From positions 310,001 to 374,000 of the forward strand of contig NZ_FNVQ01000002.1 of NCBI RefSeq assembly GCF_900108065.1: DNA of 64,000 nt, given 5' to 3'. Each line of letters opens with the position of its first letter. Positions within the stretch are counted from its first letter, which is position 1. Shown here piece after piece: positions 17,887 to 20,354 of the stretch. A program made the translations under genes and the position numbers. This DNA comes from Marinobacterium lutimaris. Lineage in GTDB: Bacteria; Pseudomonadota; Gammaproteobacteria; Pseudomonadales; Balneatricaceae. The notes beneath the pieces are model-generated. The model did not search any database. It was not told where the DNA came from and was given only the letters and a program-made list of their open reading frames with translations.

Positions 17887-19461
17887 ATGAAAGGAAAACG
17901 CAAGGATATCCCCGGCATGAGCTTTACTCCGGAAAAGATGGCCCCACTCAAGGCGCGTCGCCTTGGCATAGACACCCATCATGAGCCGACCCTGTTCCTG
18001 CGCGCCGACAGCCCCATCTGCCGCTCGGAGGGCTTTGACAGCCTGTCACGCGTGCGGGTGGACTGGGGTGAGCGCCACATCATCGCCTCCCTCAACATGG
18101 TTTGCTCGGAACTGCTGGAACCTGAACAGGCGGGATTTTCCGAATCAGCCTGGGAGCGCCTGGAGCTGGTGCCCAACGCCGAAATCCGCCTGTCTCACCC
18201 GCGCCCGGTACAGTCACTTTCCCATGTCCGCGCCAAGGTGTTCGGCCATGAGCTCGACGAGCTGCAGCTGCAGAGCATCATCAACGATATCGTCGAGGGC
18301 CGTTATGCCGATGTCCACCTGGCCGCATTTATCACCGCCTGTGGCGACGACGCCCTGAATGACCGCGAGATCACCGGGCTGACCCAGGCGATGGTCAAGG
18401 CGGGCAGCCGCATCGACTGGGGCCTGGAGCAGGTGATCGACAAGCACTGCGTCGGCGGCTTGCCCGGCAACCGTACCACGCCGATCGTGGTATCGATCCT
18501 GACCGCCTGCGGCCTCACCGTCCCCAAGACTTCATCCCGCGCGATCACCTCCCCGGCCGGCACCGCCGACACCATGGAAACCCTCACCGACGTAGCCCTG
18601 TCGCTGGAGCGGATGCGCGAGGTGGTACGCACCCAGGGCGGCTGCCTGGCCTGGGGCGGTTCGGTACGCCTGAGCCCGGCCGACGATCTTCTGATCCAGG
18701 TGGAGCGGGCGCTGGATATCGACAGTGAGGGCCAACTGATCGCCTCGGTACTGTCGAAAAAACTGGCCGCCGGCGCCACCCATGTACTGATCGATATCCC
18801 CGTGGGCCCCACCGCCAAGGTGCGCAGCCAGGAAGCCGCCGACAAACTGGCGCAGAGCTTTCAGATCGTAGCCGCCAACCTGGGCCTGAAGCTTGAAGTA
18901 CTGATGACCGACGGTAGCCAGCCGGTAGGACGCGGCATAGGCCCGGCACTGGAAGCCCACGATATCCTCGCGGTGTTGAAAAACAAAGCAGATGCCCCCG
19001 CAGACCTGCGTCAGCGCGCCTGTAAAATTGCCGGAGCCATGCTGGAAATGGTGGGCCAGAGCCAATCCGGCGAGGGCGAGAAACGCGCACAGGAGGTTAT
19101 CGAATCCGGCAGCGCCTGGGAGAAATTCCATGGTATCTGCGAAGCCCAGGGCGGCCTGAAGAACCCGCCGGTAGCCCCCTATCGTTATGCCCTGATCGCA
19201 CCGCACGACTGTTGTGTCACCGGTATAGACAACCGCCAGCTGGCCAAGGTCGCCAAGCTCGCCGGTGCTCCGGCGGACCCTGCTGCCGGTATCGAGCTAC
19301 ACGTAAAAATCGGCGACCGGGTCAGCCAGTACGACACCTTGCTGACGATCCATGCAGAAAATGCAGGCGAGCTTAACTACGCGGTAGAGTACCTGAGCGA
19401 CCACACGCTGGTGATGACACTGACTAATGAAAAGGGCAACGACAGCGAAGGAGAGCACTGA
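17887..19461 (+). CDS. AMP phosphorylase-like / thymidine phosphorylase family protein
   Basis: 524 aa. Family signatures are KHCVGGLPGNRTTPIVV and PKTSSRAITSPAGTADTMETL, closer to archaeal AMP phosphorylase (KHSVGGVPGNK type) than to E. coli DeoA (KHSTGGVGD type). An extra N-terminal domain of about 90 residues also fits the AMP phosphorylase type. Archaeal enzymes turn NMP and phosphate into base plus ribose 1,5-bisphosphate. The stop overlaps the next gene's start (TGATG) and GAAGGAGAG serves it, so the two are coupled. ATG 17887 has no ribosome site; ATG 17917 with AAGGA ten bases before is a good alternative. Substrate is inferred, not shown. Confidence 0.82.
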   Translation: MKGKRKDIPGMSFTPEKMAPLKARRLGIDTHHEPTLFLRADSPICRSEGFDSLSRVRVDWGERHIIASLNMVCSELLEPEQAGFSESAWERLELVPNAEIRLSHPRPVQSLSHVRAKVFGHELDELQLQSIINDIVEGRYADVHLAAFITACGDDALNDREITGLTQAMVKAGSRIDWGLEQVIDKHCVGGLPGNRTTPIVVSILTACGLTVPKTSSRAITSPAGTADTMETLTDVALSLERMREVVRTQGGCLAWGGSVRLSPADDLLIQVERALDIDSEGQLIASVLSKKLAAGATHVLIDIPVGPTAKVRSQEAADKLAQSFQIVAANLGLKLEVLMTDGSQPVGRGIGPALEAHDILAVLKNKADAPADLRQRACKIAGAMLEMVGQSQSGEGEKRAQEVIESGSAWEKFHGICEAQGGLKNPPVAPYRYALIAPHDCCVTGIDNRQLAKVAKLAGAPADPAAGIELHVKIGDRVSQYDTLLTIHAENAGELNYAVEYLSDHTLVMTLTNEKGNDSEGEH

Positions 19462-20354
19462 TGCAGCCGCTACTGTTTAACCTGGATACCGATCCGGATC
19501 TGGGCAGCCGCCTGTGTCGGGCGCTGGATGCAACCCCTGGCGAGCTGGAGCAGCGCCACTTTCCTGATGGCGAAAGCTATCTGCGGGTGCACAGCGACCC
19601 CAACCAGCGGGACTGCCTCATCCTCTGTAACCTGTACCGGCCAGACAGCCTCACGCTCCGGCTGCTATTTCTGGCCGATACCCTGCGCGAACTGGGCGCT
19701 AAACGTATCGGCCTGATCACCCCTTACCTGCCCTACATGCGCCAGGACAAGCGCTTCCACCCCGGTGAATGTATCAGCTCCCGTCCCTTTGCACGCCTGC
19801 TCTCAAGCAGCCTGGACCTGCTGGTTACCGTGGACCCGCACCTGCACCGCTACGACTCGCTGGACGAGATCTACACACTGAAGTCCCGTGTCGTGCATGC
19901 CGCACCGATGATCGCCGACTGGATCATCCGCCAGATAGACAACCCTTTGCTGATCGGTCCGGACAGCGAAAGTGAGCAATGGGTATCCGAGGTCGCCCGG
20001 TTGGCGGGCGCTCCCTTCCAGGTGCTGACTAAGGAGCGCCGGGGCGACTATGACGTCAGCGTATCCCTGCCCGAAGTGGATAAGTGGCGCAGTCACACAC
20101 CGGTGCTGGTCGACGACATTATCTCCAGCGGCCGTACCATGCTGGAAACGCTAAACCACCTTAAAGCAGCCGGTCTGCCACGTGCCCGGATCATCGCCGT
20201 GCACGGGCTGTTCGCGGGCGACGCCTGGCAGCAACTGCAAGCCCTGGCGGACGTAACCACTTGCGAATCGGTACCCCACCCAAGCAATGGAATCAGTCTT
20301 TCAGACGCCCTGGCCAAAGCCACTCTTGAGCTGCTTTCGGAGCTTGATGCATAG
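19461..20354 (+). CDS. Ribose-phosphate pyrophosphokinase (PRPP synthetase)-like protein
   Basis: 297 aa, shorter than the standard bacterial Prs (about 315). Phosphoribosyltransferase fold with the PRPP loop VLVDDIISSGRTM near residues 215-227, the FPDGESYLRV strand, PYLPYMRQDKRF, and the flexible-loop region LTKERRGDYDVSV. These details are nearer archaeal-type Prs than the housekeeping bacterial enzyme, which should be encoded elsewhere. The ATG overlaps the TGA of the AMP phosphorylase-like gene by one base. The pair may convert nucleotide ribose into PRPP or the reverse; the exact reaction is not known from sequence. Confidence 0.82.
   Translation: MQPLLFNLDTDPDLGSRLCRALDATPGELEQRHFPDGESYLRVHSDPNQRDCLILCNLYRPDSLTLRLLFLADTLRELGAKRIGLITPYLPYMRQDKRFHPGECISSRPFARLLSSSLDLLVTVDPHLHRYDSLDEIYTLKSRVVHAAPMIADWIIRQIDNPLLIGPDSESEQWVSEVARLAGAPFQVLTKERRGDYDVSVSLPEVDKWRSHTPVLVDDIISSGRTMLETLNHLKAAGLPRARIIAVHGLFAGDAWQQLQALADVTTCESVPHPSNGISLSDALAKATLELLSELDA

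Follow-up and report, generated by a model that had tools for sequence, protein, structure and literature searches.

A Gene Pair of Marinobacterium lutimaris as a Candidate Module for the Recovery of Ribose from Nucleotides

Introduction

In Thermococcus, the archaeal nucleoside 5'-monophosphate (NMP) shunt relies on three enzymes, i.e., an NMP phosphorylase, a ribose-1,5-bisphosphate (R15P) isomerase and RuBisCO, and the product which the first of them forms from NMPs is ribose 1,5-bisphosphate (R1,5BP; PMC9700705, PMC8376864). In Escherichia coli, R1,5BP is the substrate of PhnN, an enzyme of the phosphonate pathway, which converts it into phosphoribosyl pyrophosphate (PRPP; PMC11452294, PMC9700705). 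PRPP synthetases (Prs) have been sorted into many bacterial classes in a 2026 preprint, whose main text does not name thymidine phosphorylase (PMC13252144). Here, we describe a pair of overlapping genes in which relatives of the archaeal phosphorylase and of Prs stand side by side. It lies in a 64,000-nucleotide stretch (the window, G000:C10:310001-374000) of the 5.57 Mb genome of Marinobacterium lutimaris, the host. We propose, with a probability of roughly 0.55, that this pair forms a module by which ribose is regained from NMPs or RNA, in which the second protein, hereafter Prs2, would be the step that consumes R1,5BP.

An NMP-Phosphorylase-Like First Gene

The first open reading frame (ORF1) encodes an N-terminal part, the glycosyltransferase-3 helical and alpha/beta domains (PF02885, PF00591) and the PYNP C-terminal domain (PF07831). 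It passes NF003338 (673.9 bits, cut-off 434) and TIGR02645 (585.9 bits, cut-off 434.6), a subfamily that bears the database name "thymidine phosphorylase". This name would favor a true thymidine or pyrimidine nucleoside phosphorylase with incidental neighbors, a reading which we consider very improbable in view of the residue pattern, of the PhnN fusions described below, and of the failure of ORF1 on the models of DeoA and of pyrimidine nucleoside phosphorylase (PyNP), i.e., TIGR02643 (160 bits for a cut-off of 570.7), TIGR02644 (213 for 409) and NF004490 (212 for 269). The best solved structures, 4ga5 (E 6e-105) and 4ga4 (2e-104), were deposited as putative thymidine phosphorylase; we take them to be the AMP phosphorylase of Thermococcus kodakarensis.

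The phosphate-site motif of ORF1, DKHCVGGLPGNRTT, is of the PGN-R/K-T type, where thymidine phosphorylases (TP) have GD.V instead. We compared 49 bacterial phosphorylases with the T. kodakarensis enzyme and five TP/PyNPs over the columns conserved at 95% or more (n = 108), leaving the TP reference L131, which had been extracted in a wrong frame, out of the counts. The archaeal enzyme shares the conserved residue in 32 columns where none of the five TP/PyNPs does, and the inverse situation (all five agree and the archaeal enzyme does not) occurs in 4; among the remaining columns, 45 agree with both sides and 27 are mixed. Moreover, in a tree of 67 rows, built without the fragment G236:C325, the bacterial phosphorylases cluster with the four archaeal enzymes and are separated from the TP/PyNPs (support 100/100). 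The label "Prs2type" of this tree stands for "not fused", so that L104, which lacks a partner, and L150, which has no adjacent Prs2, carry it as well. Thus, the initial annotation, which had quoted two motifs in favor of an enzyme of the AMP-phosphorylase type and not DeoA, is supported on this point: both motifs are present, the DeoA/PyNP models fail and archaeal-type residues fill the 32 columns. ORF1 is NMP-phosphorylase-like and very probably forms R1,5BP from NMPs.

Prs2, a Subfamily of the PRPP Synthetases

ORF2 passes the subfamily model NF005537 (387.2 bits, cut-off 322) and the family profile TIGR01251 (167.2 bits, cut-off 113), and is annotated as ribose-phosphate diphosphokinase. 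It fails NF002320 and also NF002095 (191.1 bits for a cut-off of 296), which we take to be the archaeal-type Prs model. Its closest relative among the solved structures is 1u9y (3e-37), presumably the Prs of Methanocaldococcus jannaschii. Hence, the term "archaeal-like", first applied to ORF2, holds for the nearest structure and not for the archaeal-type model. We aligned 47 Prs2 members, including that of the window and leaving out two Prs2 pieces of G259, with the Prs of the host and of M. jannaschii. The ATP-site, catalytic His, loop Lys and Arg and ribose-site residues (RQD, H127, K191, R193, D218, D219 and T226) are each present in 47/47. The loop difference reported initially is real, with the loop Lys and Arg kept in every member. 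Four further residues, H129, R130, E170 and D196, are just as invariant in Prs2 and are replaced by others in both reference enzymes. In particular, the position two residues after the metal-site Asp168 is a Gly in these two references and a Glu, E170, in all Prs2 (GPDxES, 47/47).

At least one further Prs match exists in 39 of the 40 genomes with a Prs2 over the cut-off, the exception being G236, which is 70% complete. Prs2 is thus an additional enzyme, whose catalytic residues are intact and whose loop following the metal-site Asp bears a change specific to the family. This supports a distinct subfamily rather than a copy of the housekeeping Prs, in agreement with the initial annotation. Prs2 could still be a second PRPP synthetase (ribose 5-phosphate (R5P) + ATP -> PRPP + AMP), possibly adapted to scarce oxygen or ATP, serving nucleotide salvage. 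The conservation of all the catalytic residues and the annotation as diphosphokinase fit this possibility, but a near-obligate link to the phosphorylase, a substitution by PhnN in the fusion branch, and invariant changes beside the catalytic residues would be unexpected for a spare enzyme, and we hold it to be unlikely.

Pairing across Genomes and Plasmids

We surveyed 398 Pseudomonadota genomes by profile searches with cut-offs. The phosphorylase exceeded its cut-off at 47 places, spread over 44 genomes, and Prs2 did so at 41 places in 40 genomes; 39 genomes have both genes, 5 the phosphorylase only, 1 Prs2 only and 353 neither (Fisher p = 2.4e-47, treating as independent genomes that are not). 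A same-strand Prs2 lies in the operon region at 39 of the 47 phosphorylase places, directly downstream in 37 of them (5-170 nt between the profile matches); in the other 2 it precedes the phosphorylase by some 4 kb within one run of genes. At one other place Prs2 is cut by the contig end (261.9 bits), at another the adjacent Prs2 stays below the cut-off (299.6 bits), and in G236 the pair is split, with each gene at the end of a different contig. PhnN takes the place of Prs2 at 4 of the 47. Among 72,556 plasmid records, 115 carry a relative of ORF1 and 103 a relative of ORF2, and the two genes are side by side on plasmids of Criblamydia (Chlamydiota) and Pontibacter (Bacteroidota). The pairing of phosphorylase and Prs2, which had been presumed from a single locus, is thus conserved and far from chance.

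Two phosphorylase loci deserve a separate description. The second copy of G304 (L104 9197-10726) has neither Prs2 nor PhnN beside it and follows a metal P-type ATPase-like gene. On an Azospirillum plasmid (L150 5998-9132), the phosphorylase adjoins a gene for a metallo-beta-lactamase (MBL)-fold hydrolase, with no Prs2 beside it.

Exchange of Prs2 for PhnN

Four phosphorylases devoid of Prs2 (G392, G382, G308, G249) are fused at their N-terminus to PhnN, and so are two plasmid relatives, from Variovorax (L146 6301-9296) and Pacificitalea (L147 6390-9356). These six fusions score 164-186 bits on the PhnN equivalog TIGR02322 (cut-off 156), for which no match is listed for ORF1 or ORF2. They form one clade (100/100) inside the bacterial phosphorylases, and are linked to 26 unfused rows by a fork with a support of 95/96, which is most simply explained by one exchange of partner. 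Two unrelated phosphoribose enzymes, Prs2 and PhnN, have occupied the same partner slot. As both handle phosphorylated ribose, this is our strongest evidence that R1,5BP is the product of the phosphorylase and the substrate of its partner. Prs2 itself probably consumes R1,5BP.

The same exchange bears on the nature of the product. Prs2 might phosphorylate R1,5BP as PhnN does (R1,5BP + ATP -> PRPP + ADP) and feed base salvage or exchange. The replacement of Prs2 by a known R1,5BP kinase and the PRPP-synthetase stock of Prs2 both speak for this; however, it would require another geometry of the Prs active site, in which the C1 phosphate attacks the gamma phosphate, whereas normally the C1 hydroxyl attacks the beta phosphate, some relatives have catabolic operon partners, and another Prs match is already present in the 39 genomes mentioned above. 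We regard this possibility as unlikely too.

A quinolinate phosphoribosyltransferase gene (nadC-like) lies directly upstream of the fusion in 6/6 cases, identified by Pfam in L118, by annotation in L146 and L147, and by its blastp cluster with L118 in L119, L120 and L121. The association suggests a PRPP-recycling cycle, in which quinolinate would give nicotinate mononucleotide (NaMN), and NaMN nicotinate and R1,5BP, the latter being returned to PRPP by the PhnN part. Variovorax bug27 has been described next to nadC and phnN, in a paper whose main text does not use the word phosphorylase (PMC11452294). Transporter genes (TTT substrate-binding, TRAP, MFS) stand beside some of the fusions. The neighbors in L120 (2Fe-2S, molybdenum-hydroxylase and cytochrome c genes) and in L119 (molybdenum-hydroxylase with cytochrome c matches) look, in our own reading, like a nicotinate hydroxylase.

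The Archaeal Route and Its Missing Enzymes

None of the 45 genomes with a phosphorylase or Prs2 over the cut-off has an R15P isomerase passing TIGR00511, and the host has no match at all. Matches below the cut-off (139-187 bits) occur in 23/45; we take them to be probably methylthioribose-phosphate isomerases. RuBisCO is present in 22/45 genomes and absent in 23/45, including the host. By these results, the archaeal route is not open to this host. The absence of both enzymes, noted initially around the pair, thus extends to the whole host genome and, for the isomerase, to all 45 genomes, but is not general for RuBisCO. We rejected a link of RuBisCO to the pair, since its distribution shows that it is neither required nor excluded.

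Wider Operons in Relatives

In some relatives, the pair belongs to larger gene groups. The neighbor annotated as "MBL fold hydrolase" is of the beta-CASP RNase type, according to Pfam in two examples (Beta-Casp 109-121 bits, RMMBL 69-70 bits). A match to an alignment built from these neighbors lies within 5 kb of the phosphorylase in 19/47 places, at 24-944 bp; the 48 match rows used for this count comprise all those from phosphorylase genomes and some others. A phosphoketolase lies within 3 kb in 5/47 places. The order Prs2, phosphoketolase, RNase, phosphorylase occurs in two genomes and on an Agrobacterium plasmid, and the Criblamydia plasmid presents in a row phosphoketolase, glycogen phosphorylase, an ATP-cone protein, RNase, phosphorylase, Prs2 and acetate kinase, the last confirmed by Pfam. 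In one genome a gene resembling phosphoenolpyruvate (PEP) synthase follows, and universal stress proteins as well as metal P-type ATPases are encountered repeatedly. For beta-CASP, phosphoketolase and acetate kinase, Pfam was run on examples and the other members were assigned by profile or blastp cluster; the gene maps come from a simple ORF picker, which missed or misplaced some genes (e.g., the quinolinate phosphoribosyltransferase of L119 and L120). The genome-wide co-occurrence of phosphoketolase with the phosphorylase is weak (14/44 phosphorylase genomes vs 48/354 others, p = 0.0036), adjacency being the stronger signal.

Six genomes (G058 (L145), G062, G146, G298, G023 and G372) carry a beta-CASP RNase match and a low-scoring phosphoketolase match about 1.4 kb apart and have no phosphorylase over the cut-off; there, the RNase-phosphoketolase link is independent of the pair. 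Phosphoketolase matches (PF03894) fall mostly at 276-309 bits, with five at 222-230, one group at 134-154 and two at 55. Four of the five operon phosphoketolases belong to the 134-154-bit group, which may act on another substrate. ATP-cone proteins are found in RNase-phosphorylase-Prs2 operons of Criblamydia (L071 3804-4646, with a weak restriction-endonuclease-like match) and Pontibacter (L073 1972-2817) plasmids.

Regulation and Low Oxygen

Data on expression are published for Bradyrhizobium diazoefficiens. Table 2 of PMC9104804 (37 genes) collects genes that a fixK2 mutant expresses less strongly at 0.5% oxygen and whose units have a putative FixK2 box. It includes the phosphorylase bll3117 (-6.6 fold) and the MBL gene bll3115 (-30.6), of a predicted operon bll3117-bll3116-bll3115, as well as the phosphoketolase bll2518 (-10.0) and the acetate kinase bll2517 (-10.2). 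DUF2933 and isoprenylcysteine methyltransferase genes are in the same table, and these two families adjoin the pair on Roseovarius and Methylophaga plasmids. The proteins of bll3115, bll3116, bll3117 and bll2518 are raised in microoxia (PMC6515984). Furthermore, the g110 loci L090 and L092, from two genomes, carry the exact published FixK2 box, ATGATCTGGGTCAA, before the operon.

FNR/FixK-like sites are more numerous in our loci than any of 19 scrambled motifs (66 vs at most 27). We rejected a general low-oxygen promoter signature, since such sites precede 7/56 phosphorylase operons vs 30/387 other promoters (p = 0.30). We thus keep the link to low oxygen for Bradyrhizobium only, where the expression data exist. 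In L124 (G255), a phosphorylase match below the cut-off and with an in-frame stop diverges from an open beta-CASP RNase gene; a perfect FNR-like site lies between the two, universal stress proteins are nearby and no Prs2 was found in the region.

A Proposed Route and Its Alternatives

From the families, conserved residues, pairing, PhnN swap and operon membership described above, we infer the following reactions, their direction and their physiological role. ORF1 would phosphorolyze NMPs (NMP + Pi -> base + R1,5BP), and Prs2, as a dedicated partner with a PRPP-synthetase active site, would consume R1,5BP, so that neither R15P isomerase nor RuBisCO would be needed. In a PRPP synthetase, the C1 hydroxyl of R5P attacks the beta phosphate of ATP and AMP is released. 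The same active site, given ADP, would yield R1,5BP and AMP and, in reverse, R5P and ADP. The step that we favor for Prs2, AMP + R1,5BP -> ADP + R5P, would hence be the PRPP-synthetase reaction one phosphate short and run backward, and the invariant E170, where the reference Prs have Gly, could disfavor the third phosphate. ADP and R5P have been observed to occupy the active site of the E. coli enzyme at the same time (PMC9232217). By this way, the energy of the glycosidic bond would be saved as ADP and R5P would enter the pentose phosphate pathway. This particular form of the step is tentative and, on balance, less likely than not.

The direction toward R5P and ADP is in line with the presence of an RNase upstream and, downstream, of phosphoketolase and acetate kinase. 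The catabolic operons of some relatives, including the PEP-synthase-like gene, and the FixK2 and microoxia data likewise suggest that Prs2 may run this way. In the larger module of some relatives, the beta-CASP RNase would cut RNA down to 5'-NMPs, and the resulting pentose phosphate would be converted by phosphoketolase and acetate kinase into acetate and ATP, in keeping with a role of the module in energy salvage at low oxygen. The opposite direction, in which Prs2 would make R1,5BP from R5P and ADP and the phosphorylase would add a base to form NMP as a cheap salvage, uses the same chemistry read the other way, and phosphorylases are reversible; the RNase, phosphoketolase and acetate kinase links fit breakdown better, and we judge synthesis improbable. 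The most elaborate version of the proposal is speculative and rather doubtful as a whole: Prs2 would be a new R1,5BP:AMP phosphotransferase. Along with the phosphorylase, the RNase, phosphoketolase and acetate kinase, it would make up a fermentation of RNA, yielding acetate and ATP at low oxygen, and thus a pentose bisphosphate pathway independent of R15P isomerase and RuBisCO. The sister branch with the PhnN fusion and nadC would recycle PRPP and convert quinolinate to nicotinate.

Several observations weigh against ribose and energy recovery by the pair. ORF1 fails the AMP-phosphorylase equivalog TIGR03327 (481.9 bits for a cut-off of 535). PhnN makes PRPP, so the partner swap favors PRPP as the product at least as much as R5P. 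The second-copy phosphorylase of G304 and the Prs2 of G383 have no partner beside them. At 28/47 phosphorylase places no beta-CASP gene lies within 5 kb, and phosphoketolase is a neighbor at only the five places cited. The genome of the window itself has the bare two-gene core: the pair is alone there, a profile search gave no phosphoketolase in the host, and its sole beta-CASP match is 260 kb away and scores 286 bits, vs 393-776 for the operon-linked ones (one partial, 367). Regarding regulation, a search around the window's pair gave no FNR-like box, and the phosphorylase operons taken together show no enrichment of such sites in front of them. Moreover, bll3115-bll3117 are marked as not belonging to the direct FixK2 regulon defined earlier and show no change in soybean bacteroids (PMC6515984).

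Taken together, we consider ribose and energy recovery a more likely purpose of the pair than PRPP supply. The initial annotation had proposed a route joining nucleotide breakdown and PRPP. The PhnN fusions are independent evidence for the core of this idea, a supply of R1,5BP from the phosphorylase family to PRPP metabolism, but PRPP making as the purpose of the pair is not supported as stated, because the operon partners of some relatives and the FixK2 and microoxia data point to catabolism.

Layout of the Locus

The longest ORF1 spans 17887-19461 (524 aa), and ORF calls confirm the coordinates of both frames. The true start of ORF1 is probably the ATG at 17917, 30 nt downstream, because this ATG (ATGAG, then C or T), shortly preceded by AGGA, is conserved in 7/7 aligned Marinobacterium loci; the longest frame thus probably adds ten extra residues (17887-17916). 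The overlap of the ORF1 stop with the ORF2 start, reported initially and confirmed here (Table 1), suggests translational coupling of the two genes. A contig search with one sequence gave relatives from Marinobacterium only, at 6 loci with 82-95% ORF1 identity. The gene 3' of the pair belongs to one family in 7/7 Marinobacterium loci, and the divergent gene 5' of it to one family in 6/7 (blastp clusters 120 and 130 cover both flanks). From our own reading of the translations, the 3' gene would be nitroreductase-like and the 5' one PurU-like.

Table 1. Positions in the window of the two genes and of their motifs.
Feature	Position	Strand	Basis
Shine-Dalgarno-like AAGGA	17902..17906	+	Sequence; AGGA and ATG in 7/7 Marinobacterium loci
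NMP-phosphorylase-like gene (ORF1)	17917..19461	+	NF003338, TIGR02645; PF02885, PF00591, PF07831; 4ga5/4ga4
Phosphate-site motif DKHCVGGLPGNRTT, PGN-R/K-T type	18439..18480	+	Alignment, conserved-column comparison
Motif KTSSRAITSPAGTADTME, NMP-phosphorylase type	18526..18579	+	Alignment, conserved-column comparison
TGATG stop/start overlap	19459..19463	+	Sequence
Prs2 (ORF2), PRPP-synthetase family, NF005537 subfamily, 297 aa	19461..20354	+	Profiles, structure match, alignment
RQD, ATP-site motif	19740..19748	+	47/47 aligned Prs2
DPHLHR, catalytic His127 and family-specific H129, R130	19833..19850	+	Each 47/47
GPDSES, metal-site Asp168 and invariant E170	19956..19973	+	E170 47/47
Flexible loop KERRGD, K191, R193, D196	20031..20048	+	Each 47/47
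Ribose-5-phosphate loop DDIISSGRT	20112..20138	+	Alignment

Significance

The gene families involved are known. In a literature search reaching mainly open-access papers, we found no published function for the pair, nor a description, in the text available to it, of the joint function, of the RNase/phosphoketolase link or of the PhnN fusion branch. Neighbors named "thymidine phosphorylase family" and "ribose-phosphate pyrophosphokinase" occur in many Pseudomonadota and on plasmids of at least two other phyla, and these names are probably wrong. If the proposal is true, bacteria would possess a RuBisCO-independent recovery of nucleotide ribose and of part of its bond energy, tied to low oxygen in at least one lineage; the PRPP-synthetase family would include an enzyme with a different reaction; and nucleotides or RNA would be used as fuel by an undescribed route. 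What becomes of R1,5BP in bacteria can thereby be tested, with no more than two small proteins and a single sugar phosphate.

Comparison with Known Systems

The B. diazoefficiens operon bll3117-bll3116-bll3115, for which the published text accessible to our search assigns no function, has the same three genes in the same order as the g110 loci L089, L090, L092 and L093; it differs from the window, whose pair has neither an adjoining RNase gene nor a box of the ATGATCTGGGTCAA type. Prs2 resembles the archaeal and bacterial classes of Prs by its sequence family and its catalytic residues, and departs from them by its own subfamily NF005537, by H129, R130, E170 and D196, and by its failure on NF002095 and NF002320. 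In the 6 fusions examined, PhnN stands where Prs2 otherwise partners the phosphorylase; it acts on R1,5BP, but is of the guanylate-kinase-like family, unlike Prs2. Finally, the archaeal NMP shunt of Thermococcus starts with a homologous enzyme, whose residue is found in 32 of the 36 columns that separate it from the TP/PyNPs; where this shunt continues with an isomerase, over the cut-off in 0/45 of our genomes, and RuBisCO, the bacterial phosphorylase has Prs2 or PhnN as its partner instead.

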